Of a stretch of DNA of 64,000 bases, positions 42,130-63,012 are shown one piece after another. A program made the translations under genes and the position numbers. The stretch lies in the NCBI GenBank assembly GCA_009911175.1, contig QXWX01000009.1, positions 1 to 64,000 of the forward strand, written 5' to 3'. The stretch is from Lachnospiraceae bacterium. GTDB lineage: Bacteria > Bacillota_A > Clostridia > Lachnospirales > Lachnospiraceae. The stretch's first letter is position 1. Each line of letters begins with the position of its first letter. Below the pieces are notes generated by a model that was given only the letters and a program-made list of their open reading frames with translations, was not told the origin of the DNA and made no database searches.

Positions 42130-42162
42130 GCGTTTCGGATAGGGCTGTGAGCGTGGCGATTT

Positions 42163-42599: not shown

Positions 42600-42622
42600 G
42601 ACACAACTAAGTCACAAGTTCG

Positions 42623-42631
42623 TGGTATAAT
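42623..42631 (+). promoter_or_regulatory. Extended -10 promoter of the response regulator operon
   Basis: TGGTATAAT (42623-42631), 25 bp before the response regulator ATG. No strong -35 is seen, so activator dependence (perhaps autoregulation) is possible. Confidence 0.55.
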
Positions 42632-42655
42632 AGCTGAACAGGGAGGATTATATAG

Positions 42656-45508: not shown

Positions 45509-45572
45509 AGAAAATACAACTTTATCGAAAATAATTTACAACTATAACACAATTTTACTGAAAGTAATTTGC

Positions 45573-45619
45573 ATCACTCAGGTAAGATATCAATATATCC
45601 TGCCTGAGTGATTTTCGTT
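45573..45619 (+). terminator. Terminator after the regulator operon
   Basis: ATCACTCAGG (45573-45582) pairs perfectly with CCTGAGTGAT (45603-45612), followed by TTTCGTTT. It separates the two-component operon from the ABC operon. Confidence 0.7.
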
Positions 45620-45673
45620 TAAAAACATTTTAGGCATTAAGGGCAGGAAATAACTTGAATTGGAGGAAACAGA

Positions 45674-46543: not shown

Positions 46544-46564
46544 AATAGTATGGGAGGTTTAAAA

Positions 46565-47287: not shown

Positions 47288-47289
47288 AA

Positions 47290-48519: not shown

Positions 48520-48566
48520 GCTGATGACAATAATTTCCTAAACTTAAGGGAGGTGCAGATATAGAA

Positions 48567-49730: not shown

Positions 49731-49772
49731 CGTTTTAAGAAAAGTGGGAATCTATTTTAGTGGGGACAAGGG

Positions 49773-50762: not shown

Positions 50763-50803
50763 TAGGAAATGGGGAAAGAAATGGAGATCAATTTGGCAAC
50801 ATT

Positions 50804-51205
50804 TTGCCTGAATTTATTCGAGAGCATGGAGATGGGGCAAAAGAGAAGAATCTTGCTATAAGATGCCTGCCGGGAGATGATACTTTCGACAGGAGTATTA
50901 CATTAGAAGATTATGTGAGTTCAGCATTAGAAGTTGTGCTTTGGGGGCTGATAACCCACTATAGTATAGTTGACGGTGAAATTTTGTTATATGCAAAGGG
51001 GAGCAGTATCTGTATTAAGAATGTTAGTATCCAAAATAAGGATTTATGGAAATTGTGCATTAGGAAAGACGGTGTGTATGAGGTTGCAGGGAATAAAATG
51101 GGGCTGGCACTGGCTTATTTGGATATGGTAGGTGTTAGGGTGCAGTCTGATGCACAGGATGGGGCGATAATGCTAAATTTTGAGCATACAGAGGAAGATG
51201 TTTAA
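50804..51205 (+). CDS. Hypothetical protein, start uncertain
   Basis: 133 aa from TTG 50804; the frame is open back to about 50759 but has no ATG or GTG and no well-placed ribosome site. Core: FDRSITLEDYVSSALEVVLW, GLITHYSIVDGEILLYAKGS, VSIQNKDLWKLCIRKDGVYE, AGNKMGLALAYLDMVGVRVQ. It is a soluble mixed protein with no family recognised. It may be the truncated 3' end of a longer gene whose start is lost, or an immunity-like companion. It is last in the AT-rich cassette. Confidence 0.5.
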   Translation: MPEFIREHGDGAKEKNLAIRCLPGDDTFDRSITLEDYVSSALEVVLWGLITHYSIVDGEILLYAKGSSICIKNVSIQNKDLWKLCIRKDGVYEVAGNKMGLALAYLDMVGVRVQSDAQDGAIMLNFEHTEEDV

Positions 51206-51271
51206 ATGTCTTGATTTTCGTGTATTTATTTATAAAAATAAGACATATAAGGATAACCGTACAAAAGAAAC

Positions 51272-51305
51272 CGCCGCTATGGGGAGATTCACCTCATAAG
51301 CGGCG
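51272..51305. terminator. Intergenic hairpin
   Basis: CGCCGCT (51272-51278) pairs with AGCGGCG (51299-51305), with ATG/CAT continuing the stem. No long T-run on either strand. It lies in the gap between the AT-rich cassette and the agr-type pair. Confidence 0.4.
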
Positions 51306-51397
51306 TTCTGCCGTTTCCGCCGGATTATCTGCTTGGAGGTGCTATCGGATGAAAGGCGAAAAACTTTAGGGTTGTCCGCTTGGAAACAATATGCTTT

Positions 51398-51470
51398 ATA
51401 GTCGTTTCGTGCAATAAATGGGAGTTTGGTGCAGTCTGGTTTGAAAAAATATCCCATAATCCGATATTAT
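51398..51470 (+). promoter_or_regulatory. LytTR-type direct repeats and promoter, copy 1
   Basis: Direct repeats end TTTCGTGCA (51405-51413) and TTTGGTGCA (51425-51433), 20 bp apart. A promoter follows: -35 TTGAAA (51441-51446), 18-bp spacer, -10 TATTAT (51465-51470). The same repeats recur at 53471-53506. LytTR regulators bind 9-bp direct repeats about two helical turns apart, so this is the likely autoregulatory site. Confidence 0.6.
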
Positions 51471-51492
51471 GTATGGTAGGAGGCTGGTGCTG

Positions 51493-52188
51493 ATGAAGAT
51501 AGCGATCTGCGATGACAGGGAAAATGACAGGGCGGCGTTAAGGGCGCTTCTGGAAGCCTGCGGGCAGGATTTTGAAATAAGGGAATACGGCTCCGGGGAT
51601 GGGCTGTGTGGGGACATGGGATTCATACGGGAGTGCGGCATCATCTTCCTTGACATCAACATGGAGGGCATGGACGGACTGGAGGCCGCAAAGCAGATAA
51701 AGGCGGAATGCCCGAAGGTACATATCGTGCTGGTGACCGCCTATGTGAACTATGCGCTGGACGGGTACAAGGTAAAGGCGAGCCGTTTCCTCTTGAAAGA
51801 CGATCTGGAACAGACATTGCAGGAGTGCATGGACGACATCCTGCGGGAGATACGGCAGGAGGAGCGGGTGGTGGAGTTCGGTTTCGTGGAGGGGAACGTG
51901 CGGCTCAGGGTGGATGACATCATCTATATCGAGACGAGCAAACACAAGAATGTGTTCTACACCAAAGGGCAGGAGTTCAGCATTTACAGGAAGATGGACG
52001 ATCTGGAGGAGGACTTGAAGGGGATGGGCTTTGTGCGGATACACCAGAGCTTCCTCATCAACATGAAGTACATCGACAGGATAAGCAGCTACGTCATGAT
52101 CCTGACCACGGGGAAGGAGATATCCGTGCCGAAGTCAAGGTATCCGGAAGTGAAGCGGCAGTACACATTGTTTAAGGGGGCGGAGTGA
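51493..52188 (+). CDS. LytTR-family response regulator (AgrA/VirR type)
   Basis: 231 aa from ATG 51493 (AGGAGG 9 nt upstream). Receiver 1-120 with Asp54 in FLDINMEGMDGLEAAK and KASRFLLKDDLEQT. The LytTR DNA-binding domain at about 138-231 reads VRLRVDDIIYIETSKHKNVF, SIYRKMDDLEEDLKGMGFVR, IHQSFLINMKYIDRISSY. This class reads peptide signals through GHKL kinases. It overlaps nothing upstream but its stop is joined to the kinase start. No agrB or agrD-like gene is visible, so the signal gene is elsewhere or replaced. Confidence 0.92.
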   Translation: MKIAICDDRENDRAALRALLEACGQDFEIREYGSGDGLCGDMGFIRECGIIFLDINMEGMDGLEAAKQIKAECPKVHIVLVTAYVNYALDGYKVKASRFLLKDDLEQTLQECMDDILREIRQEERVVEFGFVEGNVRLRVDDIIYIETSKHKNVFYTKGQEFSIYRKMDDLEEDLKGMGFVRIHQSFLINMKYIDRISSYVMILTTGKEISVPKSRYPEVKRQYTLFKGAE

Positions 52189-52190
52189 TT

Positions 52191-53474
52191 ATGGGGATGT
52201 GGATACTTTCTTTTTGCCTCATTGCAATAGAGGCGTGGGGTGCTGTATATTTTTTTGATATCTTCATGGAAAGGAAAAGGAAGGGATGGCCGGATAAGTG
52301 CAGATATATTGTTCTGTATTTTTTATGTGTGCCCGTTGTGATCCTTGGAGGATACTTTGATGTAATGGGTATTAAGGTACTGTTGATCGTTTTAGTATAT
52401 ATGGCATTCTGTGCGATTTTTTATCAGGCTGACTGGAAACAGTGCATTTTCTTTTCCATATTGGATTATTCGCTGTTATTTTTGATAGACGTTTTTTCAT
52501 TGCTGGTCGAGAACATATTGAATTCCAGAGATAAGCTGTATGCCTTAGAGAGTGGCCTTTTGTATCTTCCCATGAAGTTCAGTTGGATTCTCCTGCTTTT
52601 TGTATTGCGGAGAATATGGAAAGGGAAGAACAGCTATGGAGAGCTTTCCCTTAAAGAATGGTGGAAATTTGGTATGGTCCCGTTGTTCACTCTGGCTTCC
52701 ATGCTGCTCATGTATTTCTGCTACAGCAGTGAGAAAAAGGTGCAGGCAGTCTATCTTTTCGTTGCGGCGGGGCTGATCATGATAAACTTCCTTGTGCTGA
52801 TGCTGATGCAGGATATCCTTGTGAAAGGAGAAATGTTGCGGGAAAGCGCATTGTCAGACCAGAAGAAAGAGAGCCAGCTCGCCCATTACCGGGATATGCA
52901 GGCGGTCTATGAAAGACAGGGGCGGAAACTGCATGATTATAAGAACCAGATCAGGACGATGCAGGTGCTGTTAAAGGAGGGGAACACACAAGCCGCCGCC
53001 GGGCTTGCGGAGCGGCTGACGGAGAGCATATCGGTGGAGATGGCGGCTGTCAATACGAACCACTCTATCGTGGATGCGGTGCTGAACCAGAAGTTCCATG
53101 CCGCAAGGGAGCAAGGGATATCCATGATATTCAAGGTCGGTGATATGGCCGGGCTTAAGCTGGACGGGGAGGAGACGGTGATCCTGCTTTCCAACCTGCT
53201 GGACAACGCCATCCATGAGTGCGCGAGGGTGGCAGAGGCGGGGCGGAATGCCGTCATAAACATTAAGCTGGTGCAGGAGGACGGGCGGCTGATCTTTTCC
53301 GTAAGGAACCCCGTGGTGGAAAAGGTGCAGACCGCAGACGGCGCAGTCCTGGATTCAGAAGGGAGGCGGCACGGGACAGGGCTTGCCAACGTGAAGGCAG
53401 TGGCGGACAAATATGGGGGTGATCTTGCCCTTTCCTGCGATGAGGAAAAGTTTCAGGCGGTGGTCATTTTATAG
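52191..53474 (+). CDS. GHKL sensor kinase (AgrC-like)
   Basis: 427 aa from ATG 52191. Six or so N-terminal membrane helices at about 1-210 (FCLIAIEAWGAVYFFDIFME; LLIVLVYMAFCAIFYQADW; SLLFLIDVFSLLVENIL; WILLLFVLRRIW; MVPLFTLASMLLMYFC; LFVAAGLIMINFLVLMLM). The cytosolic part has the AgrC-type H-box KLHDYKNQIRTMQVLL and the GHKL ATPase LLSNLLDNAIHECARVAEAG and HGTGLANVKAVADKYGGDL. It pairs with the preceding LytTR regulator. Confidence 0.92.
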   Translation: MGMWILSFCLIAIEAWGAVYFFDIFMERKRKGWPDKCRYIVLYFLCVPVVILGGYFDVMGIKVLLIVLVYMAFCAIFYQADWKQCIFFSILDYSLLFLIDVFSLLVENILNSRDKLYALESGLLYLPMKFSWILLLFVLRRIWKGKNSYGELSLKEWWKFGMVPLFTLASMLLMYFCYSSEKKVQAVYLFVAAGLIMINFLVLMLMQDILVKGEMLRESALSDQKKESQLAHYRDMQAVYERQGRKLHDYKNQIRTMQVLLKEGNTQAAAGLAERLTESISVEMAAVNTNHSIVDAVLNQKFHAAREQGISMIFKVGDMAGLKLDGEETVILLSNLLDNAIHECARVAEAGRNAVINIKLVQEDGRLIFSVRNPVVEKVQTADGAVLDSEGRRHGTGLANVKAVADKYGGDLALSCDEEKFQAVVIL

Positions 53475-53506
53475 TCATTTCGTGCAAAAAATAGTCACTT
53501 GGTGCA
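53471..53506 (+). promoter_or_regulatory. LytTR-type direct repeats, copy 2, before the gene array
   Basis: ATAGTCATTTCGTGCA (53471-53486) and ATAGTCACTTGGTGCA (53491-53506), the same 20-bp period and core TTTSGTGCA as at 51398-51433. A TTGAAA (53515-53520) follows as in copy 1, but the -10 is less clear. Predicted binding site of the 51493 regulator for the array beginning at 53596. Confidence 0.6.
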
Positions 53507-53595
53507 GTCCGGGTTTGAAATCCGGGCGCATCTGCCGACAGATTTTATATAGGCTAGGGCTGGCAAAAATATATTAAGTCAAGGAGGATGATGGT

Positions 53596-54273
53596 ATGCC
53601 AAAAATCACAGATTACAGTTTTCTATTTCAAAGTATGTTCGGGACGAAAAACTCAAAAGGTACAAGTCCAATAGGCAGCTTTCAGTTGTCACAGTTGAAC
53701 AGCGGTTCCGTGCAGGCACAGTTAAGGGCTGCGGGAATTGATACGAACAGCAGGCAGTATAAGGCAGCTATAAAACAGATGACGTCAAATGCAAACGGGG
53801 CAATGTATGCAAATATCCAGGGCATAAAGAACCTGATGAAGAGCTATGACAAGGATGGGGACTACATAGACCCCACTACGGGGCTGGCAGGTCTTTTAGT
53901 GACAGAGGAAAATGCGGGCAGCAGGAAACGTATCATTTCCATCCCGGAGGGCAGTAAGGATGAGATGTTTGAACTGACAAAGAAGGAATTCCTGCGCGAA
54001 AATGGCGTACTGAACGGTGATACGACAAAGCGGTCAGATGTGTATACCAATATGTACCGCAAGGTACAGAAAAATGACCGGTTGGCGGCGGGATACACGA
54101 TGGAGCAGTACGAGAGGGCATACAGGCAGGCATTCCTGGATGCTGCAAGGAAAGCCGATCCAAGGTGGGAAATCGGCAGGCCAGTCCCATCCGGGGCATT
54201 GGACGGCATCACAAGGGAATCCGTGGAAGCTAACCTGAAAAAATCAGGCGGATCACTGGATGTGAAGATATAA
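53596..54273 (+). CDS. Unknown array protein 1
   Basis: 225 aa with a very strong AAGGAGG. No signal peptide. Features: FLFQSMFGTKNSKGTSPIGS, NSGSVQAQLRAAGIDTNSRQ, MKSYDKDGDYIDPTTGLAGL, EGSKDEMFELTKKEFLRENG, YTMEQYERAYRQAFLDAARK. Helical and Ser/Gly-rich at the start. I recognise no domain with certainty; similar proteins in Lachnospiraceae carry DUF numbers only. First gene of the putatively LytTR-controlled array; the signal or surface role is unknown. Confidence 0.65.
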   Translation: MPKITDYSFLFQSMFGTKNSKGTSPIGSFQLSQLNSGSVQAQLRAAGIDTNSRQYKAAIKQMTSNANGAMYANIQGIKNLMKSYDKDGDYIDPTTGLAGLLVTEENAGSRKRIISIPEGSKDEMFELTKKEFLRENGVLNGDTTKRSDVYTNMYRKVQKNDRLAAGYTMEQYERAYRQAFLDAARKADPRWEIGRPVPSGALDGITRESVEANLKKSGGSLDVKI

Positions 54274-54284
54274 TGTGCATACCG

Positions 54285-54372
54285 GATTCCGCAGAGGCGC
54301 ATATATTTCTGCCCCTGTGGGATGCCAGAACTTATTTCAATGGCCATGGACGGCTTTGACCGACAGAGAGCC
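54285..54372 (+). ncRNA. Repeated structured leader, family 1, copy 1
   Basis: P1 ATTCCGCAGAGGC (54286-54298) with GCCCCTGTGGGAT (54311-54323); P2 GCC (54324-54326) with GGC (54342-54344) around a 15-nt loop AGAACTTATTTCAAT; P3 GGCTTTG (54352-54358) with CAGAGAGCC (54364-54372), loop ACCGA. It precedes the 54414 gene. Copies at 56219 and 58533 keep the architecture; see findings. Confidence 0.6.
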
Positions 54373-54413
54373 AACATTGGGATTAAAAAAACATCTTAAG
54401 GAGGATGATGATT

Positions 54414-55112
54414 ATGGCAATGGAGATCAGCAGTAATTACAGCAGCTATGCAAGTGGTTATGCAGGTGCTGCAGACAGCAGAAAGAAGGCGGCTGCTACG
54501 CAGACGGGCAGCATTGGTGAATCCGGGCTTTCCCAAAAGGCACAGGCCCTTCTGGAAAAACTCAGGAAAACTTACGGGGATATGGATTTCATGGTGGCGG
54601 ACTTCGATAAGGGGGACAATGCAAAAGAAATCCTGTCCCGCGGCACAAAGGATGTTTCCGTCATATTCTCCAGTTCGGAGCTTGAAAAGATGGCTTCGGA
54701 CGGGAAATACGAGCAGGAGTACATGAGCCAGGTGCAGGGCGCACTTCGGATGTCGGAGCGGATCAACCGGGAGTTCGGCTTCACATCGGTATCGGGACAG
54801 AAGAATGGTGGTGCTGGAATAAACAGGATAGGAATCTCCTTTAACTCGGACGGCACGACATCGCTCTTTGCGGAACTGGAAAAGTCCAGCGCAAGGCAGA
54901 GAGAGCGGATCGAGAAGGCAAGGGAGGAAAAGCGGGCTGAGAGAAAGGAAAAGCAGGACAGTTACCAGCGGGGGAATGCAGGAGTGAAACGGACAACAGT
55001 CCGAGCAGACAGCATGGAGGAACTTCTGGAGAAGATCAGGGGAGTCGATTGGGATTCCGTAAAGGAAGAATATAAGCCGCAGAGCGGCGGGCGTTTTGAT
55101 TTTACCATATAG
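54414..55112 (+). CDS. Unknown array protein 2 (DUF6033-like)
   Basis: 232 aa from ATG 54414, 9 nt after AAGGAGG (54398-54404); earlier ATGs are too close to it. N-terminus MAMEISSNYSSYASGYAGAA, then LSQKAQALLEKLRKTYGDMD, FMVADFDKGDNAKEILSRGT, KDVSVIFSSSELEKMASDGK, GAGINRIGISFNSDGTTSLF, and a long charged helix EKSSARQRERIEKAREEKRA. This pattern resembles proteins annotated DUF6033 in Lachnospiraceae. Cytosolic by sequence. Function unknown. The repeated leader lies in front of it and it is co-transcribed with the 55128 gene. Confidence 0.68.
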   Translation: MAMEISSNYSSYASGYAGAADSRKKAAATQTGSIGESGLSQKAQALLEKLRKTYGDMDFMVADFDKGDNAKEILSRGTKDVSVIFSSSELEKMASDGKYEQEYMSQVQGALRMSERINREFGFTSVSGQKNGGAGINRIGISFNSDGTTSLFAELEKSSARQRERIEKAREEKRAERKEKQDSYQRGNAGVKRTTVRADSMEELLEKIRGVDWDSVKEEYKPQSGGRFDFTI

Positions 55113-55127
55113 AAGGAGGATAAGAAA

Positions 55128-56198
55128 ATGTCAATGAATGTTAATCAGGATTACAGCCAGTTTTACAGAGGTACAACGAATATCCCTGCATACGGGAGTG
55201 GCGCAAATAAAAAGGATACCCTTGTAAAGTATGGGTTCAACACCACAGACGAGCATGGCAACAAGGTCATGGATAAGATGTCAAGGGAAGAAACGCTGCA
55301 GGCGATGAAGGATATCCGCTCACAGTATGGGGATGCGGTCATTGTGGAGTTTTCCGGTGACGGCATGGCGGCCCTTGTAGACGGCAGGAAAGGGGCGGTG
55401 GATGCCAGCATGACGCAGGAACAGCGGGATGCGTTGGAAGCGAGGGATGCTGCGTTCCAGAAAGAGATCACGCAGGTGGATAAATCCCTGAATGACCTTC
55501 CGGCATATTCCGGGATGTATGGCGCAGACAAGGCGGTTGCGTCTGCGGTGGAGAACTGCAGCAAAGAGGAGCAGGGTTTTGTATATGACATCATCCGGCA
55601 GAACTTCCTTATCGGGAACAGCGGTTCCATGACGGAGGAAGAACGGCAGGCAAACATCTCCCTTGGCATGAAGAAAGCGGAATATGCGGTGGAGAATTTT
55701 ATCCCCGAAGGCAGCAGGGAATCATTCATGGAAGCAATGGAATCCATCGCCAGACTTGCCAGCGCGGGAAAGGCCGACAGCAGCGGGAACATGGACTATG
55801 GGGTTGCAAAAGGCAGGTACCTTGGGCATGGCAGCGGGCTTGTTAAGACCACGAGCGCGGTTGACATGATGCGGACAATGGATAAGGACGCATACGCCGA
55901 GTACCAGAAAGCGAGCAGAAAGGATGACGGCGGCCTCAGCTCATTGAAATACCTTACAAACTGGTATGCGGGCGCAGTGAAGAAAAATCCTTCGATGGTG
56001 GATGAATACGAAAAGCAGTCGGAGGAATATGTGGAGAAAAATGTGAAAGACCGGAAGCTGGATACAACCTTTGCGGGGATAAAGACAGGGAATAGGGCGG
56101 TTTTCCTTGAAAGCCTGAAAGCGTTCCAGAGCAGCAATCCGGATTTCCTTGCATCCATTATAAACCGTGAGCTGGCTTCAAAGTTTTGGATGGTTTAA
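55128..56198 (+). CDS. Unknown array protein 3
   Basis: 356 aa, GAAGGAGG site, 15 nt after the previous gene, so one operon. NVNQDYSQFYRGTTNIPAYG at the start, then DTLVKYGFNTTDEHGNKVMD, VIVEFSGDGMAALVDGRKGA, QGFVYDIIRQNFLIGNSGSM, YAVENFIPEGSRESFMEAME, LKYLTNWYAGAVKKNPSMVD. No signal peptide, no known domain. It is the largest array protein. No clear homologous domain with the other array proteins except the shared style of N-terminus. Confidence 0.62.
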   Translation: MSMNVNQDYSQFYRGTTNIPAYGSGANKKDTLVKYGFNTTDEHGNKVMDKMSREETLQAMKDIRSQYGDAVIVEFSGDGMAALVDGRKGAVDASMTQEQRDALEARDAAFQKEITQVDKSLNDLPAYSGMYGADKAVASAVENCSKEEQGFVYDIIRQNFLIGNSGSMTEEERQANISLGMKKAEYAVENFIPEGSRESFMEAMESIARLASAGKADSSGNMDYGVAKGRYLGHGSGLVKTTSAVDMMRTMDKDAYAEYQKASRKDDGGLSSLKYLTNWYAGAVKKNPSMVDEYEKQSEEYVEKNVKDRKLDTTFAGIKTGNRAVFLESLKAFQSSNPDFLASIINRELASKFWMV

Positions 56199-56218
56199 AC
56201 TATATGGGTTTATACATG

Positions 56219-56307
56219 ATTCCGCAGGGGCGCATAAAACTCTGCCCCTGCGGAATGCCCGGACTTATTGCGAGGGGGCATAGATGGCTCTGACTGACAG
56301 ATGGGCC
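56219..56307 (+). ncRNA. Repeated structured leader, family 1, copy 2
   Basis: P1 ATTCCGCAGGGGC (56219-56231) pairs perfectly with GCCCCTGCGGAAT (56244-56256). P2 GCCC (56257-56260) pairs with GGGC (56276-56279) around the 15-nt loop GGACTTATTGCGAGG. P3 GGCTCTG (56286-56292) with CAGATGGGCC (56298-56307), loop ACTGA. It precedes the 56341 gene. Confidence 0.62.
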
Positions 56308-56340
56308 GTGGGATTAAGAATAGTTGGAGGACATTGAAAA

Positions 56341-56838
56341 ATGGGCATTAACGGAATTGGAGCGGCAGGCTATCCGATGGCTGGATATATGGCAAAGAAA
56401 GCAGAAAGGAATGACGAATCCACAGAGAAAGGTTTTATGGAAATTGTTGCAGAGAAAGCGGAGCAAGAGAAAAAAGCAGATTATGACGAGAAAGCCTTTG
56501 AATCCGTAGGGGCGAATGCGCCGGAAGAAGTGAAGCAGGCATGGATGGAAGCGGCGAAAGAAGTAAGTGCAAATGGTCTGGGGATGAAGAAGGATGGGAT
56601 ACTGAGCCATATATCGCAGATGATGGTGCAGAGATGTAATAAAATGCTGAGAGGGGAGGCGGACAGTCAGGATATTCTGGGAAACACAGTGGAATCCGCA
56701 ATCCAGGCAACGAAGCAGGCATTATATGATCTGGAACATCCGAGGGCGTATGTGCCAAAGAGCATAGAGGTTCAGCAGGCACAGATCAAGGAACAGGAGT
56801 TCTATACAGCGTTTTTGGAGAAGCTGGAAAACATATGA
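56341..56838 (+). CDS. Unknown array protein 4
   Basis: 165 aa, GGAGG 9 nt upstream. MGINGIGAAGYPMAGYMAKK at the start, then NDESTEKGFMEIVAEKAEQE, GANAPEEVKQAWMEAAKEVS, MMVQRCNKMLRGEADSQDIL, STIQATKQALYDLEHP-like helix and YVPKSIEVQQAQIKEQEFYT. The N-terminal motif NGIGA.GYP recurs in the 58614 protein (NGIGAGYPAAGK). Helical, no signal peptide. Function unknown. Confidence 0.62.
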   Translation: MGINGIGAAGYPMAGYMAKKAERNDESTEKGFMEIVAEKAEQEKKADYDEKAFESVGANAPEEVKQAWMEAAKEVSANGLGMKKDGILSHISQMMVQRCNKMLRGEADSQDILGNTVESAIQATKQALYDLEHPRAYVPKSIEVQQAQIKEQEFYTAFLEKLENI

Positions 56839-56987
56839 TACATAGATGAAAATTTCCATTGAGGATATCATAAAAATCGAAGATGTTTCTAAAGGGGAAT
56901 AATTCTTGGTAAAAGTGTAAAGTAGAATTAAGCTCTGCATCACCTATACAGTTGGGTGAATAAATACATTGAAAGAAAGGGAAATAA

Positions 56988-57161
56988 ATGACGAAAAAGA
57001 TATTATTTGCTCTAACTATTCTCTTTATTATATTGACCTTTATAGGGGCTGGATATGTAATTGTATCCAAAGGAACCGTAAATGCTGGATATGCTGTTAT
57101 ACCTGCAGTGTGGACAGTAATATGTATGAGTGGTTATAGATGGTACAAAAAGAAGAAGTAA
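56988..57161 (+). CDS. Small two-helix membrane protein
   Basis: 57 aa from ATG 56988 with GAAAGGGA upstream: MTKKILFALTILFIILTFIG, then VNAGYAVIPAVWTVICMSGY and YRWYKKKK end. Two hydrophobic segments with positive ends. AT-rich like the surrounding gap. It is too short for certainty, but the frame is clean and the ribosome-binding site fair. It could be a peptide-type or holin-like partner of the array. Confidence 0.45.
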   Translation: MTKKILFALTILFIILTFIGAGYVIVSKGTVNAGYAVIPAVWTVICMSGYRWYKKKK

Positions 57162-57246
57162 TATAGATGATTTGTTAGATAAAAAATTTCTGACGATATA
57201 CAGCGGAGTTTATAACAGACCATCTGTTCCCAATGTCCCACAAAGC

Positions 57247-57300
57247 ATGGCAGGCGTCCCCGGTTTCCGGCGGATAGGCAAATCGGGGAGCAGGGGCGGC
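57247..57300 (+). ncRNA. Repeated structured element, family 2, copy A
   Basis: CCCCGGTTT (57258-57266) pairs with AAATCGGGG (57280-57288), one G-U, loop CCGGCGGATAGGC. Flanks ATGGCAGGC and AGCAGGGGCGGC. It lies before the 57342 gene. Copies at 57804, 58165 and a shortened one at 58978. Confidence 0.55.
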
Positions 57301-57341
57301 TTAATTGTAAAAATAAGAGGTGGAGGTAGGGGATTAGTAAA

Positions 57342-57785
57342 TTGGAGATGAAGGATGTGCCACAAATAGAAGAATATATAAGAAACCGTGTACATGAACT
57401 GTACTGGAAAGATGATATAAATTGTGCAAGGACAGCGATCATTTGTTTGGGTGAATTATTTGAAATTACTGTTGAACAGCAGACGATCTGGTCAGCAGTC
57501 GGATTGCATGGTGCCGGAGGGTACAGAGCGCAGTGCGGCTTAGTTGAAGGCACGCTTATGTTTATAGGGATTTATCTTCATGAGTTGGGAAAAACGGAAG
57601 ATGAAATTGTATCTGCCTGTTACAATTTTGCGTCAGCCTTTGATAAAACATTCGGCTCATTAAGATGTTTTGAATTGCGTCCTGCGGGTTTTTCAGAAAG
57701 CAACCCACCGCATATGTGTGAAAATCTGACTTGCAGTGGAATTGAATTTGCATATCAATATATTTTAGGGATTACAAAACAGTGA
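57342..57785 (+). CDS. C_GCAxxG_C_C-family redox-like protein
   Basis: 147 aa from TTG 57342 (ATG 57348 alternative). Family motif: NCARTAIICLGELF, VGLHGAGGYRAQCGLVEGTL, then HMCENLTCSGIEFAYQYI near the end. Cysteines and the GAGG segment match the C_GCAxxG_C_C probable redox family of anaerobes, which may handle electrons or small molecules. It is an unexpected member in a signalling-controlled array. Function in the array unknown. Confidence 0.72.
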   Translation: MEMKDVPQIEEYIRNRVHELYWKDDINCARTAIICLGELFEITVEQQTIWSAVGLHGAGGYRAQCGLVEGTLMFIGIYLHELGKTEDEIVSACYNFASAFDKTFGSLRCFELRPAGFSESNPPHMCENLTCSGIEFAYQYILGITKQ

Positions 57786-57803
57786 CTTAATAAACCGCAG
57801 ATC

Positions 57804-57859
57804 ATGGTAGGCACCCCCGGTTTCTGGCGGATAGGCAAATCGGGGAGCCGGGGGCAGCT
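57804..57859 (+). ncRNA. Repeated structured element, family 2, copy B
   Basis: CCCCGGTTT (57815-57823) with AAATCGGGG (57837-57845), loop CTGGCGGATAGGC. It lies between the 57342 and 57903 genes. Confidence 0.55.
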
Positions 57860-57902
57860 TTGTTAGATGGTGGGGAGTAAACATTTATTGTGGAGAAGTG
57901 GC

Positions 57903-58148
57903 ATGAAAGTAACAGATGTATTTTCTTGGAAACCTGCAAAGGAAATATGTATTGAAGAACTGGAACAGGTATTTAGGGAATATTTCAACGGAACCTATGC
58001 GGGGAAATATAAGGTATCAATGAAAACGCCTGATAATGCAGGAAAGAATGTTTTTGATGTCAGGGCAGAGCTGATTGAGGAAGGAAGAAAGGTAGCTTAT
58101 ATTTTGGAAGATAAAATAATTATAGCTGTTGTTGGTTATTCCTGCTGA
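57903..58148 (+). CDS. Unknown small protein
   Basis: 81 aa from ATG 57903 (GGAGA upstream). MKVTDVFSWKPAKEICIEEL, EQVFREYFNGTYAGKYKVSM and GKNVFDVRAELIEEGRKVAY, ILEDKIIIAVVGYSC. A compact alpha/beta protein with no recognised family. A family 2 element lies before and after it. Confidence 0.55.
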   Translation: MKVTDVFSWKPAKEICIEELEQVFREYFNGTYAGKYKVSMKTPDNAGKNVFDVRAELIEEGRKVAYILEDKIIIAVVGYSC

Positions 58149-58164
58149 TGGCAGCCTACAACGT

Positions 58165-58220
58165 ATGGCAGGCATCCCCGGTTTCTGGCAGATTAGCAAA
58201 TTCGGGGAGCAGGGGCGGTT
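58165..58220 (+). ncRNA. Repeated structured element, family 2, copy C
   Basis: CCCCGGTTT (58176-58184) with AAATTCGGGG (58198-58207; one bulged T), loop CTGGCAGATTAGC. It precedes the 58244 gene. Confidence 0.5.
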
Positions 58221-58243
58221 TCCGCAGAAAGGACATTTTTGAT

Positions 58244-58492
58244 ATGGAGATAACGGGAATTAAGAATATACATCCGGCAGCATCAAAGGCATCATCCAGG
58301 AAAGGCTGGAAGCTGACGGACTCCCTCCGGGAGAAGATAACGGCGCTTGCGAGGGAGGATGCGGCGCAGGGTGTCTATATGGGGAATAAGTTCCTCGCCC
58401 TGCGGAAAAGCGAGGTCGCCAAAGTCGCGCCGGACAGGGCAGGAGTCACAGGCAGATCAGTGAGAGGAGGTGAAGGCCGCTATGGAATTTGA
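58244..58492 (+). CDS. Unknown small array protein
   Basis: 82 aa from ATG 58244 (AAAGGA upstream). MEITGIKNIHPAASKASSRK, then GWKLTDSLREKITALAREDA, AQGVYMGNKFLALRKSEVAK, VAPDRAGVTGRSVRGGEGRY. The N-terminus follows the I-x-G-I pattern of the other array proteins. Basic C-terminus. Function unknown. Confidence 0.55.
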   Translation: MEITGIKNIHPAASKASSRKGWKLTDSLREKITALAREDAAQGVYMGNKFLALRKSEVAKVAPDRAGVTGRSVRGGEGRYGI

Positions 58493-58532
58493 CCGGGGAG
58501 GTTAACAGGTATATTTGCATGGAGACAATGAA

Positions 58533-58584
58533 CTGCTCGGACTTTTTACAAGGGAGCAGGAGCGGCTCTGAACGACAGAGGGGC
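58533..58584 (+). ncRNA. Repeated structured leader, family 1, copy 3
   Basis: P2 CTGCTC (58533-58538) pairs with GAGCAG (58554-58559) around the 15-nt loop GGACTTTTTACAAGG. P3 GGCTCTG (58564-58570) with CAGAGGGGC (58576-58584), loop AACGA. P1 is absent. It precedes the 58614 gene. Confidence 0.6.
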
Positions 58585-58613
58585 TGACAAAAATAATGGA
58601 GGAGATTAAGAAA

Positions 58614-58955
58614 ATGAATGTAAATGGAATAGGGGCAGGATACCCGGCAGCAGGAAAAGCAAAGGTGCGTCAGGCACAGGACGGGACACAGAGTTTTGAC
58701 CGGGAATTTATGGGGATGGCATCTCAGACGCCGCCTTCCTTTGTCGGAAAGGTCTGGACGAAAGAGGAACTTATGCAGTCGGTTGATAAGCAGGTGCAGA
58801 GCAACCAGAGCAAGAAAATGTCCGTTTCTGATATGATAAAGGCGACCTGCATAGAAGGGACGAGGGCAAGATTCCGCTTTGCGGGGGAGGATAAGATATA
58901 CACGTTTGATGAATACATAAAGGAGCTTGACAAGCGTTCAAAGAATAATGTGTAG
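58614..58955 (+). CDS. Unknown array protein 5
   Basis: 113 aa from ATG 58614, with GGAGG 11 nt upstream; the ATG at 58596 is in effect its ribosome site. MNVNGIGAGYPAAGKAKVRQ shares NGIGA-GYP with the 56341 protein. Then QSFDREFMGMASQTPPSFVG, WTKEELMQSVDKQVQSNQSK, RFRFAGEDKIYTFDEYIKEL. No signal peptide. Function unknown; it follows a family 1 leader. Confidence 0.6.
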   Translation: MNVNGIGAGYPAAGKAKVRQAQDGTQSFDREFMGMASQTPPSFVGKVWTKEELMQSVDKQVQSNQSKKMSVSDMIKATCIEGTRARFRFAGEDKIYTFDEYIKELDKRSKNNV

Positions 58956-58977
58956 GTAAAATGCCATAGGGCGGACA

Positions 58978-59011
58978 GGGCAGGCTTTCCGGCAAATTGG
59001 GGAACCGGGAG
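58978..59011 (+). repeat. Shortened family 2 element, copy D
   Basis: GGCAGGC followed by TTTCCGGCAAATTGGGGAAC and CGGGAG. The 5' CCCCGGTTT arm is partly lost, so it probably no longer folds like the others. It lies before the 59116 frame. Confidence 0.4.
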
Positions 59012-59115
59012 AAAACTTATAATACACAAAAGGTAAATGATGGCAATGCGGTTTGAAGGGGGAGGCGTTTATTGGGAGATACCAATAGGCGCCTCTGTGC
59101 TTTCGGAGGAAGGAG

Positions 59116-59280
59116 GTGGTCATTATCCAGAAAATTAAATGCCCGAACCATAAGTGTGAGAGACGGATTTTTGATATCGGCATAACACGGTTCAGGATCA
59201 TAGTAGAACTGAAATGCCCGCACTGCGGCGAAGTGGTACGGGTGTACTGGAAACCAAAGGAGAAGAAAAAATATACATAG
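59116..59280 (+). CDS. Small Com-like zinc-ribbon protein
   Basis: 54 aa from GTG 59116 (GGAGGA upstream). Two Cys pairs, IKCPNHKCERRIFDIG and LKCPHCGEVVRVYWK, about 25 residues apart, give a zinc ribbon like phage Mu Com and related phage proteins that bind nucleic acid. It ends in a basic tail. It sits at the return to phage-like genes. Confidence 0.55.
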   Translation: MVIIQKIKCPNHKCERRIFDIGITRFRIIVELKCPHCGEVVRVYWKPKEKKKYT

Positions 59281-59288
59281 ATAAAAAG

Positions 59289-59315
59289 AACGGCGGGAGG
59301 ATTCCTGCTGTTTTT
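59289..59315 (+). terminator. Terminator after the Com-like gene
   Basis: AACGGCGGGA (59289-59298) pairs with TCCTGCTGTT (59303-59312; two G-U), followed by TTT. Confidence 0.6.
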
Positions 59316-59442
59316 GCTTTTACGGATTAAAGCGTTCCTTTTATGGGCATACTTATGCTATCAATGGAAAAATATGGAAATTTCCATTGTGCGCAAAACT
59401 GAATAAGTACCGAGCGAGTGGGACCGCATTGCGTCGAGTCAC

Positions 59443-59526
59443 GAATGGCCGGAGTAAAGCTAGTGAGTTGTTTTAAGAGTGTATGTATAGTGATAGCTTT
59501 CCCTGGCCATTCTCTGCCTTTTTTTT
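59443..59526 (+). other. Long-range stem with T-run in a non-coding stretch
   Basis: GAATGGCC (59443-59450) pairs with GGCCATTC (59505-59512); AAAGCTA (59456-59462) pairs with TAGCTTT (59494-59500); an eight-base T-run follows. A terminator with a long loop, or a small RNA. The 315-bp stretch 59281-59595 has no gene. It also holds the 13-bp direct repeat TTAAAGCGTTCCT (59327 and 59550). Confidence 0.5.
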
Positions 59527-59550
59527 AAAGCCAGTCCCACGTCTATATGT

Positions 59551-59596
59551 TAAAGCGTTCCTAACTTTACGAAGCCGTAAAGGAAGGAACGCTTTA
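59551..59596 (+). promoter_or_regulatory. Hairpin covering the ribosome-binding site of the 59596 gene
   Basis: TAAAGCGTTCC (59551-59561) pairs perfectly with GGAACGCTTTA (59586-59596), the last base being the A of the start codon. An inner stem CTTTACG (59565-59571) with CGTAAAG (59576-59582) takes up part of the AGGAAGG site. Translation should be low unless the stem opens. Confidence 0.6.
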
Positions 59597-60057
59597 TGTC
59601 TTTTAGGAAGATCACAGTCAAGTCAGGAAACGAAGAATCCACACTGGAAGTTACGGAAGAGAAATATCAGAAATATTACCGCCCGTGGTGGCAGCAGAAA
59701 AAGCATGAGCAGAGGAACCGGGAGGCGATGGAGCAGAACGGCTATACGGAAGAATCCTATGAGGCATGGCAGGATAATGCCTCGGAGGAGGTGGGAATCC
59801 CAGACATGGAACTGCCGGGGGTGGACGAGCTGGTGGAGAAAAAGCTGCTGCTCGGTGTGCTCGCGGACGCGATGGATTCCCTCCTGCCGGAAGAGAGGGA
59901 GCTTGCCATGAAGGTGTTCGGGGAAGAAATGTCCCTTGCTGATTATGCGGATATGAAGAAGCAGAATCCCCGGACGCTTTCCGACCATAAACGGAGAATA
60001 TTATCCAAGCTGCGGAGGTTTTTCTCGGAGCGTGGTTTTGAGGTTGACAGCAGATGA
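59596..60057 (+). CDS. Sigma-70-like regulator of the element
   Basis: 153 aa. N-terminal region KITVKSGNEESTLEVTEEKY and QKYYRPWWQQKKHEQRNREA, then a C-terminal sigma region-4-like HTH (about 95-145): LLPEERELAMKVFGEEMSLA, DYADMKKQNPRTLSDHKRRI, LSKLRRFFSE. This layout is common in ICEs and prophages of Clostridia as a transcription regulator before the integration genes. Its start is inside a ribosome-site-covering hairpin, so translation is controlled. Confidence 0.75.
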   Translation: MSFRKITVKSGNEESTLEVTEEKYQKYYRPWWQQKKHEQRNREAMEQNGYTEESYEAWQDNASEEVGIPDMELPGVDELVEKKLLLGVLADAMDSLLPEERELAMKVFGEEMSLADYADMKKQNPRTLSDHKRRILSKLRRFFSERGFEVDSR

Positions 60058-60227
60058 CCATATCTGCCAGCAAGAGTATTTCAGCGACAAATTTTACGGG
60101 AAATGTCGAACGGTTTTCAAGAAAATTTCATTTTAGCCCACCGAAAACAGAAAAAGTGTCATTACGAAAGGTAGGAGGGTATATTTCGGAGCCTTCCAAA
60201 ACGGCAGGGAAGGAGGGAACGGAGCCT

Positions 60228-60386
60228 ATGGAAAAATCACAGGAGCTTATCGGCATCTTGCAGGCAATCAGCATCGTGGCGAAAAGCCTCGCCGCCAAGC
60301 TGATGCAGATCGAGAAGGAAGTGGAAGCCTACGAAGCCGCGAAAGTGGCGCATGACAGGAAAATGAAGAAAGGATGGAGGCACTGA
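60228..60386 (+). CDS. Small helical protein
   Basis: 52 aa from ATG 60228 (AAGGAGG upstream), MEKSQELIGILQAISIVAKS, LAAKLMQIEKEVEAYEAAKV, then AHDRKMKKGWRH. It is a coiled-coil-like helix, and its stop overlaps the next start by 1 nt. The 60058-60227 stretch before it has no gene. Such small proteins lie in the same place in related prophages. Function unknown. Confidence 0.6.
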   Translation: MEKSQELIGILQAISIVAKSLAAKLMQIEKEVEAYEAAKVAHDRKMKKGWRH

Positions 60387-60832
60387 TGCGTAAGAAGGTT
60401 TTTATCTGCAGCCCCTTCCGTGGCGACATGGAAGGGAATTCAAGGAAAGCGGCGGCCTACTGCCGCATGGCGTGTGAGCAGGGTTTCCTGCCTGTTGCGC
60501 CGCACCTCTTATTCCCGCAGTTCTTAAATGAGGGGATAGAGGAAGAGAGGCAGCTCGGCATCGCTATGGGGATGGAGCTGCTCGCCCTGTGTGACGAGGT
60601 GTGGGTGTTCGGGGAAGCCACCGAAGGGATGGCGGCGGAGATCGCCTATGCCACAGAACAGGGAGGGAAATTGCAGAGGATGTCGGAAGTCCGTGCGGTG
60701 CTGGCAGAGAAGGCCAACGCCGGACATACGGCGGAAGTAAAAGCGCTCATCAAAGGGCGTGGGGCGGGGCGGCTGTCGGAGATTGATCCGGCAGAATATC
60801 CCGCGCTCCTTGCGGAGGCAGAGAGGCTGTGA
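60386..60832 (+). CDS. DUF4406 protein fused to a phage C-terminal module
   Basis: 148 aa from ATG 60386. The N-terminal about 95 residues are DUF4406: KKVFICSPFRGDMEGNSRKA, PVAPHLLFPQFLNEGIEEER, CDEVWVFGEATEGMAAEIAY, a paralogue of 13853-14275. The last about 48 residues (SEVRAVLAEKANAGHTAEVK, GRGAGRLSEIDPAEYPALLA) match the C-terminal module of the 9570 protein. So it joins two units found separately in the replication region. A nucleotide-binding enzyme with an added interaction module is the likely form. Confidence 0.78.
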   Translation: MRKKVFICSPFRGDMEGNSRKAAAYCRMACEQGFLPVAPHLLFPQFLNEGIEEERQLGIAMGMELLALCDEVWVFGEATEGMAAEIAYATEQGGKLQRMSEVRAVLAEKANAGHTAEVKALIKGRGAGRLSEIDPAEYPALLAEAERL

Positions 60833-60862
60833 TGGGGAAGGAATGGAGCGGATGGAAGGGAA

Positions 60863-60892
60863 CCTGCGGGATACTGCCCGCAGGCTTTTTTT
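60863..60892 (+). terminator. Rho-independent terminator
   Basis: CCTGCGGG (60863-60870) pairs perfectly with CCCGCAGG (60877-60884), then C and seven Ts. Strong. It ends the small-gene transcript. Confidence 0.88.
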
Positions 60893-60957
60893 GTTTTTCC
60901 ATTCCAGGTTTTAAAACTGCTGTTTTTTGCGGACTGTGGCATAGGAGGTGGCGGCCA

Positions 60958-61197
60958 ATGACGCTTGAAGAAATGAGGTTAGTAGATGTGAGGACGGTTG
61001 ACCGGGATTCGCTGGTGGATGTGACGCGGGTCCATATTGATGAGGGCCTGCCGAAGGAGGAGCGGCTTAAGGAGTTTGTCTGGCAGGTGAAGAATCCATA
61101 CTGCTTCCGTGTCGGGAATGTCGTGGTCAAGAATGTGTACAGCAATGACGGGGTATCGCTGAGGGAGCGGTTTGAGCAGTTCGCAAGAACCCTTTGA
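60958..61197 (+). CDS. Small conserved phage protein (DUF6870-like)
   Basis: 79 aa from ATG 60958 (AGGAGGTG upstream). MTLEEMRLVDVRTVDRDSLV, DVTRVHIDEGLPKEERLKEF, QVKNPYCFRVGNVVVKNVYS are typical of the small DUF6870 family that lies just before the recombinases in Clostridia prophages. It is probably an excision or regulatory helper, or unrelated to integration; function not known. Confidence 0.72.
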   Translation: MTLEEMRLVDVRTVDRDSLVDVTRVHIDEGLPKEERLKEFVWQVKNPYCFRVGNVVVKNVYSNDGVSLRERFEQFARTL

Positions 61198-61315
61198 GTT
61201 CTCGGACATTGTAAGAAGTCCTCAGGACATCGCGCCATGTCATGGAAAAATCCCGGGAACCGTGGTAAGGTGGAATCCTAAAGGACTATTGCCTGTGCGG
61301 CCTCTGGTTTCTGGA

Positions 61316-61339
61316 TTATCCGGATTGGGCACCGGATAA
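61316..61339. promoter_or_regulatory. Palindrome before the recombinase gene
   Basis: TTATCCGG (61316-61323) and CCGGATAA (61332-61339), 8-bp perfect arms with an 8-nt spacer, 26 bp before the recombinase start. Operator-like. Confidence 0.5.
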
Positions 61340-61365
61340 GGAAGAACAGGACAGGAGGATTGCAG

Positions 61366-63012
61366 ATGGAAACGTTGAATTCTAAAACATATCATGCAGC
61401 CGTGTACCTGCGGCTGTCCAGGGAGGACGGTGACGTTGCGGAGGGCAGCAGGGCTCTCAGCAACAGCATCTCCAACCAGAAAGAGCTGGTCATGGACTAT
61501 CTGAGGTCCCACGCCGAGATCCAGGTCTATTCCGTTTATACGGATGACGGATGGAGCGGCGTTGATTTTCAAAGGCCGGAATTCCAGAGGATGTTGAGCG
61601 ATATCCGGGAAGGTTCTGTTGACTGCGTGGTCGTAAAGGACCTGTCCCGGTTCGGCAGGAACTATATTGAGTCCGGGAGGTACATTGAGAAGATTTTCCC
61701 CATGCTGGGGGTGCGGTTCATTGCTGTCAATGACGGTTACGACAGCCTGGACGGGCAGTATGGGAATGACATGGTCATCCCGTTCAAGAACCTCATCAAT
61801 GATGCGTACTGCCGGGATATTTCCGTGAAGATACGGAGCCATATGGAGGTCAAGAGGAAGAACGGGGAGTATATCGGGGCTTTTGCCGCCTATGGGTATC
61901 TGAAGGACCCGGAGGATAAGAACCATCTGGTGGTTGATGGATATGCGGCGGATGTGGTGCGGGATATCTTCGCCATGAAGCTGGCCGGGTGCAGCTTGAA
62001 AGCGATTGCGGACAGACTGAACCGGGACGGCATACTGTCCCCGCTGCAGTATAAGAAGAGCATCGGTATCCGGCTGGAGAGCTCCTTCCAGAAAGACATG
62101 GAGCCGAAGTGGAGTTACAATGCGGTTCTGCGGATTTTGAAAAATGAGGTGTATGTCGGCACGGTTGTCCAGGGGAAATGTACCACGCCGAATTACAAGG
62201 TCAAGAAGCGTGTGTATAAGGACGAGAGCGAGTGGGTACGTGTGGGGGATGCCCATGAGGCGATTGTGGGCAGGAGCGAGTTTGAATTGGTGCAGTCGCT
62301 GCTTGCGAGGGATACAAGGGTGTCCCCGAAAAAGGGGAAGGTCTTCCCACTGGCCGGGATGGTGTTCTGTGGGGGCTGTGGGGAGCCGATGGTCCGCAAG
62401 ACGGTCCCTTCCGGGGATAAGAGGTATGTGTATTATGTCTGTTCCGGGCATAAGAATGACAGGGCTTCCTGCTCATCCCATAGTTTTTCCGCAAAGAAGC
62501 TGGAGGAGAGCGTGCTGGCGCTGGTACAGACTTTTATCGGGAAGGTGTTGATGCTGTCGGAGGCGGCAGATATTGTCAGCCAGGCATCAGGGATGGCGCG
62601 GGATGCGGGGAAGGTCGAAAGCCGGATTGTAAAGCTGAGGGAAGAGGCGGAGGACTGCGGCAGGAGGCGGAAGAACCTGTATGAGGATTTCAAGGATGGC
62701 ATCCTCACCAAAGAAGAGTATGCCATGCTCCGGGAGCAGTACCAGAAGCAGGCAGATGGGATCCAGGCTGCCATTGCATCCCTGGAAAAGGAGAGGGACA
62801 GCATCCAGACGGGGCAGACGGCCGGGCAGGAATGGGTTGATGCCCTGAAAGGCTACAAGGGCGTGGAGACGCTTGACCGGAGGCTGGCGGCATTCCTCAT
62901 TGACCGGATCGAGGTCATGGATTCGGATACCCTGCAGGTGTCCTACCGGTTTGAGAAGGAAGCAGCGGAGATGGAGCGCTTTGTGATGATGTATAGGAAG
63001 GAGGCGGTCTGA
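61366..63012 (+). CDS. Large serine recombinase 1
   Basis: 548 aa from ATG 61366 (AGGAGG 7 nt upstream). Resolvase-type catalytic domain 8-160: AAVYLRLSREDGD with nucleophile Ser18, VKDLSRFGRNYIESGRYIEK (active-site Arg region), RFIAVNDGYDSLDGQYGND. A recombinase domain (about 175-290) has IGAFAAYGYLKDPEDKNHLV. A zinc-ribbon domain (about 320-370) reads MVFCGGCGEPMVRKTVPSGD and YVCSGHKNDRASCSSH. A C-terminal coiled coil follows. This is the usual integrase of prophages and ICEs of this group. Likely integrates or excises the element. Confidence 0.93.
   Translation: METLNSKTYHAAVYLRLSREDGDVAEGSRALSNSISNQKELVMDYLRSHAEIQVYSVYTDDGWSGVDFQRPEFQRMLSDIREGSVDCVVVKDLSRFGRNYIESGRYIEKIFPMLGVRFIAVNDGYDSLDGQYGNDMVIPFKNLINDAYCRDISVKIRSHMEVKRKNGEYIGAFAAYGYLKDPEDKNHLVVDGYAADVVRDIFAMKLAGCSLKAIADRLNRDGILSPLQYKKSIGIRLESSFQKDMEPKWSYNAVLRILKNEVYVGTVVQGKCTTPNYKVKKRVYKDESEWVRVGDAHEAIVGRSEFELVQSLLARDTRVSPKKGKVFPLAGMVFCGGCGEPMVRKTVPSGDKRYVYYVCSGHKNDRASCSSHSFSAKKLEESVLALVQTFIGKVLMLSEAADIVSQASGMARDAGKVESRIVKLREEAEDCGRRRKNLYEDFKDGILTKEEYAMLREQYQKQADGIQAAIASLEKERDSIQTGQTAGQEWVDALKGYKGVETLDRRLAAFLIDRIEVMDSDTLQVSYRFEKEAAEMERFVMMYRKEAV

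Follow-up and report, generated by a model that had tools for sequence, protein, structure and literature searches.

In Bacillota, the FliW-CsrA-flagellin (hag/fliC) checkpoint ties mRNA control to flagellar assembly through a protein that reads the message, as described in the consulted excerpts of two papers (PMC8523840, PMC6529632). The leader analysed here may work in a like manner, in that the synthesis of a flagellar axial protein would be coupled to assembly by a protein-read mRNA. In contrast to that checkpoint, it serves flgE and not flagellin, has two hairpins with near-fixed loops, does not require CsrA, and has TIGR02530 as its neighbouring protein. The T4 endoribonuclease RegB targets GGA within ribosome sites, more readily when the GGA is unpaired and the next base constrained, according to the excerpt of PMC3014915. 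The predicted core fold of TIGR02530 bears a weak resemblance to RegB and the RelE/YoeB toxins, whereas TIGR02530 lies in the flagellar operon and would act on a structured leader. With riboswitches and orphan Rfam motifs the leader shares a compact conserved 5' structure, covarying stems and near-fixed loops; unlike them, it has no Rfam 15 match, serves flagellar structure genes and is linked to a protein gene. Post-transcriptional control of FlgE has been reported in Salmonella, which belongs to a different phylum (Bonifield et al. 2000, by its title as cited in an excerpt of PMC4032328). In the abstracts and excerpts consulted, no description of an flgE RNA element in Bacillota was found, and the literature searched gave no match for TIGR02530, DUF6033 or DUF3879.

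The window, which is the whole stretch of 64,000 nucleotides analysed, is a prophage, with packaging, head, tail, lysis and integration genes lying together. Three copies of the leader were located where the preliminary description had placed them, each preceding an array gene with a ribosome site, as it had stated; the ATG starts are listed with them in Table 1. The covariance model R1 was built from copies 2 and 3 and eight relatives. Copy 1, whose first hairpin is degenerate, in line with the deviation noted earlier, was left out of this set and therefore tests the model independently. The next-best match after the three copies has an E-value of 2.4 in the same search, and the whole window has no additional match at E 0.1 or better. 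A degenerate fourth copy ahead of the DUF3879 gene was rejected, as R1 has no match there.

Table 1 Features of the array and its surroundings. SD sites and starts behind the leaders were read from the sequence. R1 scores were obtained with filters off in the last 19 kb of the window; E-values are rough, from a short calibration.
Feature	Position	Strand	Description	Score
Prophage frame	24282..63012	+	PHROGs: portal, major head protein, head-tail adaptor, major tail protein, tape measure, holin, amidase, serine integrase	
LytTR-like response regulator and GHKL sensor kinase	51469..53474	+	adjoin array	NCBIfam matches all below cut-offs
DUF3879 gene	53596..54273	+	array head; no leader model match ahead of it in the window	
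Accessory 5' hairpin ahead of copy 1	54285..54323	+	from sequence and folds; outside conserved element	
Leader copy 1	54320..54376	+	P1 degenerate, P2 intact: GGCTTT-GACCGACAG-AGAGCC; SD 54398-54404, ATG 54414	R1 27.8 bits, E 1.4e-5
DUF6033 gene after copy 1	54414..55112	+	Pfam PF19498; start picked by SD spacing, ORF listed from 54405	E 4.5e-48
Array gene without own leader	55128..56198	+	directly 3' of DUF6033 gene	
Accessory 5' hairpin ahead of copy 2	56219..56256	+	from sequence and fold; 3' arm has two bases in common with P1 foot	
Leader copy 2	56253..56311	+	P1 ATGCCC-GGA-CTT..GAG-G-GGGCAT; P2 loop GACTGACAGA; SD 56326-56330, ATG 56341	R1 73.1 bits, E 1.6e-16
Array gene after copy 2, 165 aa	56341..56838	+	no Pfam/NCBIfam family	
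Leader copy 3	58531..58589	+	P1 CTGCTC-GGA-CTT..AAG-G-GAGCAG; P2 loop GAACGACAGA; SD 58598-58604, ATG 58614	R1 73.3 bits, E 1.4e-16
Array gene after copy 3, 113 aa	58614..58955	+	no family found	

The element is formed by two hairpins (named P1 and P2), located just 5' of the ribosome site and ATG in each copy. Among the relatives, both hairpins show strong compensatory pairing, the loops are near-fixed (GGA-CC...GG-A and GANYGACAGA), and about 15 bases of the leader are near-invariant within a small and compact fold. The near-invariant GGA of P1 forms part of an internal loop flanked by a stem on either side, in the context C/U-GGA-C. What had been drawn as a single 15-nt loop is composed of this unpaired GGA, an inner stem of 2-3 bp, a tip that varies and a further unpaired purine; in the window the inner stem is CUU/AAG, and in the flgE copies it is CC/GG and may have an additional pair. 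The second hairpin proposed earlier is real, but its drawing as GGCTYTG/CAGA is less apt than a variable stem of 5-6 bp closing the 10-nt loop GANYGACAGA. The long 5' hairpin does occur in copies 1 and 2, though it was rejected as a component of the conserved element, being present in only two of the three window copies and some relatives.

The compensatory changes exceed both shuffled and slid controls, and the leader is a conserved structured RNA element. For the 10 R1 sequences, the covariation score is 0.339 against 0.205 for shuffled controls (0/500). For 93 distinct flgE-type sequences it is 0.572 against 0.251 (0/500), in an alignment that was fitted to the structure and is biased towards it; a MAFFT alignment, which was not structure-fitted, gave 0.608 against 0.275. 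When the partners were slid by 1-3 columns in the 93 flgE-type sequences, the covariation was at most 0.201. A stem parser placed 273 of 309 distinct sequences and dropped 36; it favours paired solutions and was therefore kept out of the evidence. The preliminary description had named two findings that would speak against its claim, covariation no better than chance and a recent duplication. The former is contradicted by both sequence sets, and local duplication is insufficient because relatives occur across Bacillota. Its view of a conserved cis-acting RNA outside the known riboswitches is correct within its limits, given the covariation, the position 5' of genes and the lack of an Rfam 15 family; it did not include flgE as the chief gene served, the accompanying TIGR02530 gene or the prophage nature of the window. 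Rfam 15 gave no match in the window at or above any family's gathering score and, in eight loci that bear leaders, none at E<=1. Below gathering score, four matches fall in the array region with E up to 5, and the sole one overlapping a leader (E 1.4) is on the opposite strand.

The main gene served by the leader, in many Gram-positive bacteria, is that of the flagellar hook, flgE. A record scan for relatives returned at least 119 stretches, with 80 loci given; the spread among taxa beyond kinship ranks is read from its record titles. The genes behind leaders were surveyed for 80 matches, which form the better-scoring portion of another list (two without a called ORF). A FlgE-family gene follows the leader in 39 of 40 loci that were included blind, as top hits of the searches at class and phylum level (L144-L147, L149-L152 and L154-L185; L143, L148 and L153 were excluded as repeats of genomes already in). 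This is the fair figure; the wider count of 94/95 is biased, since that set held 42 family loci preselected as flgE-type and 13 flagellar regions. Other genes behind leaders are FlgG-like, with one FlgK-like N-terminus; these labels, as well as FlbD-like, were assigned by eye from N-termini, with no family model. Across 200 genomes of the family, the flagellar export gate gene flhA is present in all 75 genomes with the leader (E<=0.1), and the leader is found in none of the 90 genomes without flhA. Genome G549 has array copies of the leader but no export gate.

Directly upstream of the leader, the gene is TIGR02530 in 92 of 93 cases, placing the leader between TIGR02530 and flgE. Of the 98 class genomes that have both FlhA and the leader (E<=0.1), 30 entered a panel, along with 23 of the 49 that have FlhA but lack a leader match at that level, and with G549 and G001. 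In its 53 flagellated genomes, leader and TIGR02530 co-occur with one doubtful case, the targeted look for the leader covering only genomes with TIGR02530. The control genome of Bacillus subtilis yielded no match to TIGR02530. For genomes lacking TIGR02530, 98 kb of flagellar loci were searched with filters off; flgE was located in five of seven, and in these five, where flgE could be viewed, leader and TIGR02530 are both absent. This linkage suggests that the TIGR02530 product may be the protein partner of the leader. TIGR02530 belongs to the flagellar operon and carries an extension at its N-terminus, and its predicted core shows a weak but consistent resemblance to RelE/ParE/RegB-type (BECR) proteins. 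The fold reading comes from a second structure aligner and weak profile matches; Foldseek gave no significant match for TIGR02530 against the PDB. The invariant residues S56, H58 and R62 are candidates only for RNA binding or cleavage, and we know of no nuclease activity of TIGR02530.

We tentatively favour, at somewhat below an even chance, a new class of mRNA leader that would place flagellar rod and hook proteins under protein-read translational control by TIGR02530, the leader being present on phage cargo too. Its original role would be to control the output of these proteins in Bacillota, FlgE above all, most likely as a translational switch read by a protein. TIGR02530, with its RelE/RegB-like core, would recognise the leader via the unpaired P1 GGA and the near-fixed P2 loop, and its binding or cutting would set the level of FlgE translation, so that hook protein synthesis would depend on the state of the basal body under assembly. 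The GGACCU strand of many flgE leaders is complementary to the ribosome site GGAGGUC (49/90 against 7/265), and their pairing would represent the off state. As a general mechanism this pairing was rejected: it fails in the array copies and shows no covariation beyond permutation, so it is retained only as a lineage-limited possibility. In the window, the cassette of a temperate phage consists of short genes without assigned function; three of them carry the host leader and would thus be made under the same control. A more specific proposal, which we regard as rather unlikely, makes the RelE/RegB-like TIGR02530 a dedicated leader reader in a CsrA-independent hook-assembly checkpoint of Bacillota, with temperate phages having copied the leader onto modular cargo whose production, and perhaps export, would be restricted to hosts that are building flagella. 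If true, this would give a role to the flagellar-operon gene TIGR02530 and plug phage cargo into a host assembly circuit. A conserved flgE leader in much of a phylum, together with a linked candidate reader, makes the question testable.

The leader could instead be a riboswitch with TIGR02530 as a mere neighbour, which we consider unlikely. The compact fold, the near-invariant bases and a GGACCU strand complementary to the flgE ribosome site fit such a reading, but the genes served encode flagellar axial proteins and phage cargo and not the enzymes or transporters of one compound, TIGR02530 is tightly linked, no Rfam class matches, and no result points to a small-molecule riboswitch identity. 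It is also distinctly unlikely that the leader is a processing or stability element of a long flagellar transcript, whose hairpins would shield the flgE portion once the transcript is cut and so raise the dosage of hook protein. Its place between TIGR02530 and flgE, the about 120 FlgE copies of the hook (excerpt of PMC4032328) and a RegB/RelE-like neighbour that could do the cutting agree with this; however, a purely protective hairpin needs no near-fixed loops with changing stems.

Quite improbable, in our judgement, is an address label bringing the mRNA to the flagellar export gate, where rod- and hook-type proteins would be made at the export site and phage proteins would share the route. 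The leader genes encode export substrates or lookalikes (FlgE, FlgG-like, one FlgK-like N-terminus), N-termini are interchangeable among some array proteins, the single one modelled being disordered there, and the leader genomes of the family sample all have FlhA. Against this, none of the N-termini inspected behind leaders was recognised as that of a flagellin, G549 has array copies without the gate, and export of array proteins is putative only. CsrA as the reader, acting on GGA as in the Bacillus subtilis flagellin leader, is very improbable. The CsrA consensus places GGA in an apical hairpin loop; the GGA of P1 is near-invariant and internal. This GGA, a further GGA in the ribosome site and the presence of CsrA in 48 of 55 panel genomes are compatible with it, yet the P2 loop would be left unexplained. 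The presence test does not support CsrA either: it is missing in two of the 30 leader-positive genomes, one of which (G422) is a single contig rated 100% complete, and CsrA and leader show no association (Fisher 0.38). Finally, there is next to no chance that the leader is no RNA at all but a spreading DNA repeat or a recombination site of phage cassettes. Arrays do contain several near-identical copies, but the compensatory pairing, the constant strand, the short distance to starts and the single flgE copies in distant bacteria stand against it.

In other gut Lachnospiraceae, cargo genes likewise carry the leader. Plasmid and phage records gave short or distant matches only; a plasmid locus of Lachnospira eligens has a related array gene, with no leader match at E<=1 by either covariance model. 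An N-terminal module is exchanged among some array proteins, and residues 1-38 of the 165-aa protein have pLDDT < 50 in the predicted structure. At another locus (L074), the leader precedes a protein that by eye resembles the DUF3879 gene product. ORFs similar by eye to LytTR/GHKL proteins lie beside the arrays of loci L031, L346 and L355.

Each of the three leader copies put forward in the preliminary description proved to be real: the covariance model R1 was trained on copies 2 and 3 of the window plus eight relatives, and copy 1, which was left out, was recovered at E 1.4e-5. Across the entire window R1 gave no further leader at E<=0.1, and with filters off none rose above chance in the last 19 kb. 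The same description recognised no known riboswitch here, and indeed no Rfam family reached its gathering score in the window; an Rfam search of eight leader-bearing loci returned 0 matches at E<=1. Where it had allowed that covariation might be no better than chance, the opposite was found, with a score of 0.339 for ten R1 sequences versus 0.205 when shuffled. For 24 sequences aligned without reference to structure, the score was 0.608, compared with 0.275 after shuffling and <=0.218 for slid partners, and for 93 flgE-type sequences, in an alignment fitted to the structure, it was 0.572 for true partners and <=0.201 for partners slid one to three columns. We are highly confident that the leader represents a real, previously unlisted class of cis-acting RNA tied to flgE.

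The first hairpin (P1) starts with a variable stem of 4-6 bp. An unpaired GGA follows on the 5' side, then an inner stem, which is CC/GG in flgE copies and CUU/AAG in array copies; this carries a variable tip, and a single purine is left unpaired on the 3' side. A short linker separates P1 from the second hairpin (P2), in which a variable stem of 5-6 bp closes the loop GANYGACAGA. Among the 93 distinct, model-found flgE-type sequences, the stems vary freely yet remain paired. The GGA of P1 is nearly invariant (G 1.00, G 1.00, A 0.98), as are positions 1-5 (G.98, A 1.00, A or C.97, U or C.99, G 1.00) and 6-10 (A.95, C.95, A.88, G 1.00, A 1.00) of the P2 loop. Each of the outer five P2 pairs occurs as three to five pair types, with 1/464 cells unpaired, and the innermost pair is formed in only 31/93 sequences.

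The suggested covariance search of Clostridia genomes was carried out with R2, a second model built from flgE-type sequences, which matched 109/391 class genomes and 93/299 phylum genomes at E<=0.1; R1 matched 93/200 family genomes at E<=1. Six array copies occur in G001, the nearest of the genomes searched. Two loci reached through weaker pattern matches have the order TIGR02530 - leader - flgE, the motif lying directly before flgE. Behind 43 of 80 distinct family matches of R1, counted at loci from the better-scoring part of the match list, lies flgE; the others mostly precede shorter proteins, many of them array-type. When loci were taken blind as best matches, a FlgE-family gene followed in 39/40 (L183 among them being FlgG-like by N-terminus), and the remaining one was cut by a contig edge. 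Weaker matches and second copies precede FlgE-family genes in 26/41 cases (40 loci), six being FlgG-like by N-terminus (L306, L307, L309, L311, L312 and L333), and 15 do not. When genome records with names were scanned by pattern, a FlgE-family gene stood behind 49/93 among the matches listed (80 loci); records with such genes include, by title, Lachnotalea glycerini, Clostridium sp. KNHs205, Sporomusa sp. KB1, Oceanobacillus sp. J11TS1, Cytobacillus oceanisediminis, C. purgationiresistens and Fredinandcohnia onubensis, many others being gut Lachnospiraceae. Once (L241), the leader stands in front of a FlgK-like gene, judged by N-terminus only.

Occurrence of the leader is linked to that of the flagellar export gate FlhA (PF00771), which is present in 110/200 family genomes. 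All 75 family genomes that R1 matched at E<=0.1 have FlhA (75/75), and 0 of the 90 FlhA-less ones match at this threshold; at E<=1, 15 FlhA-less genomes appear, in line with chance matching. Among R2-matched class genomes, FlhA was found in 91/92 at E<=0.001, 93/96 at 0.01 and 98/109 at 0.1, and in the phylum sample in 69/70 at E<=0.001. Both exceptions at 0.001 possess FliP and rod/hook genes: G313 (class) has the leader before flgE (L169), and in G646 (phylum) one such gene lies 41 bases behind the leader. Conversely, 49/147 class FlhA genomes lack an R2 match at 0.1 and only 87/245 phylum FlhA genomes were matched at E<=0.1, so the leader is far from universal or has diverged beyond the model. 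One genome, G549, is a true exception, with two array-type leaders and no FlhA, FliP, rod/hook genes, CsrA or TIGR02530 found. Its long leader-bearing array on contig C11 (L346) adjoins LytTR/GHKL-like ORFs.

For 92/93 flgE leaders the ORF immediately upstream is TIGR02530-like, and 49/52 upstream ORFs picked at named loci match TIGR02530 proteins. In a panel of 55 genomes (30 leader-positive, 23 flagellated without a genome-wide R2 match, G001 and G549), TIGR02530 is present in 30/30 leader-positive genomes, G001 and 16/23 of the flagellated group. Reading on from TIGR02530 in these 16 revealed diverged leaders, 15 of them at E<=0.03 (R2, filters off, E for a 10 kb search) and a doubtful one at E 0.15 (L367). 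The seven flagellated genomes without TIGR02530 yielded neither a leader nor a TIGR02530-like sequence in 98 kb of flagellar loci (flgE located in five), the sole match, at E 0.83, lying away from flgE. TIGR02530 might be the reader of the leader, at a likelihood slightly short of even. The other candidate reader, CsrA, is absent from 2/30 leader-positive genomes and 4/23 of the flagellated group (Fisher 0.38), and no comparable tie to the leader was seen. In an uncultured Selenomonadales (L229), TIGR02530 and a leader match precede an ORF that starts unlike FlgE, with an N-terminus that we take to be FlbD-like.

The leader could also act by pairing with the ribosome site. P1 contains GGACCU, the complement of which, AGGUC, is found at such sites. 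UC follows GGAGG in 49/90 flgE sites with GGAGG versus 7/265 other ORFs at the same loci, and the duplex energy (131 leaders) is better for flgE, at -7.57 versus -5.51 for the sites of other genes; however, a leader paired with another species' site does as well (114/500 permutations). The 27 array copies have no GGACCU-type complementarity to the ribosome site. The nine G001-lineage flgE leaders retain P1 with GGACC, with an AGGAAG-type site in 7/9, AGGAGG in 0/9 and the usual P2 loop in 1/9. Pairing of P1 with the ribosome site is possibly a lineage-limited feature.

The window is identified as a prophage by its PHROGs matches, which comprise portal, major head protein, head-tail adaptor, major tail protein, tape measure, holin, amidase and serine integrase. 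The array lies between lysis genes and the integrase and adjoins a LytTR-like/GHKL pair; by eye, G001 region L031 has the same gene order. The leader pattern occurs in six viral contigs. In four (L350, L353, L354 and L355), R1 confirmed leaders in front of array-type genes; L351 and L352 gave no R1 match and were dismissed as chance. Modularity of the array proteins is clear in at least one case: in the protein behind L031:8896, 24 N-terminal residues are common to a DUF6033-type neighbour (83% identity), and the remainder is shared with the window's 56341 protein. Five helices are predicted for the 165-aa protein, with low confidence over residues 1-38.

Locations of array and cargo features in the window and of flgE leaders in the G001 lineage
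Feature	Location	Remark
Second hairpin element	57248-57303
Second hairpin element	57805-57858
Second hairpin element	58163-58220
Second hairpin element	58975-59020	degenerate copy
Gene for C_GCAxxG_C_C putative redox protein	57342-57785	within phage cargo region
Further cargo behind lysis module	42656-51205	response regulator-like and ABC transporter-like ORFs (by eye)
G001-lineage flgE leaders	L103, L104, L105, L108, L109, L110, L112, L113, L119

Another repeated hairpin element, distinct from the leader (GGCAGGCRYCCCCGGTTTCYGGCRGATWGGCAAATCGGGGAGCMGGGGCGGC), is found ahead of array ORFs without the hook-type leader. It has no Rfam match at gathering score in the window; a match at E 3.4 covers one copy. 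Stretches resembling it occur in L031, L032, L196, L208, L221 and L255.
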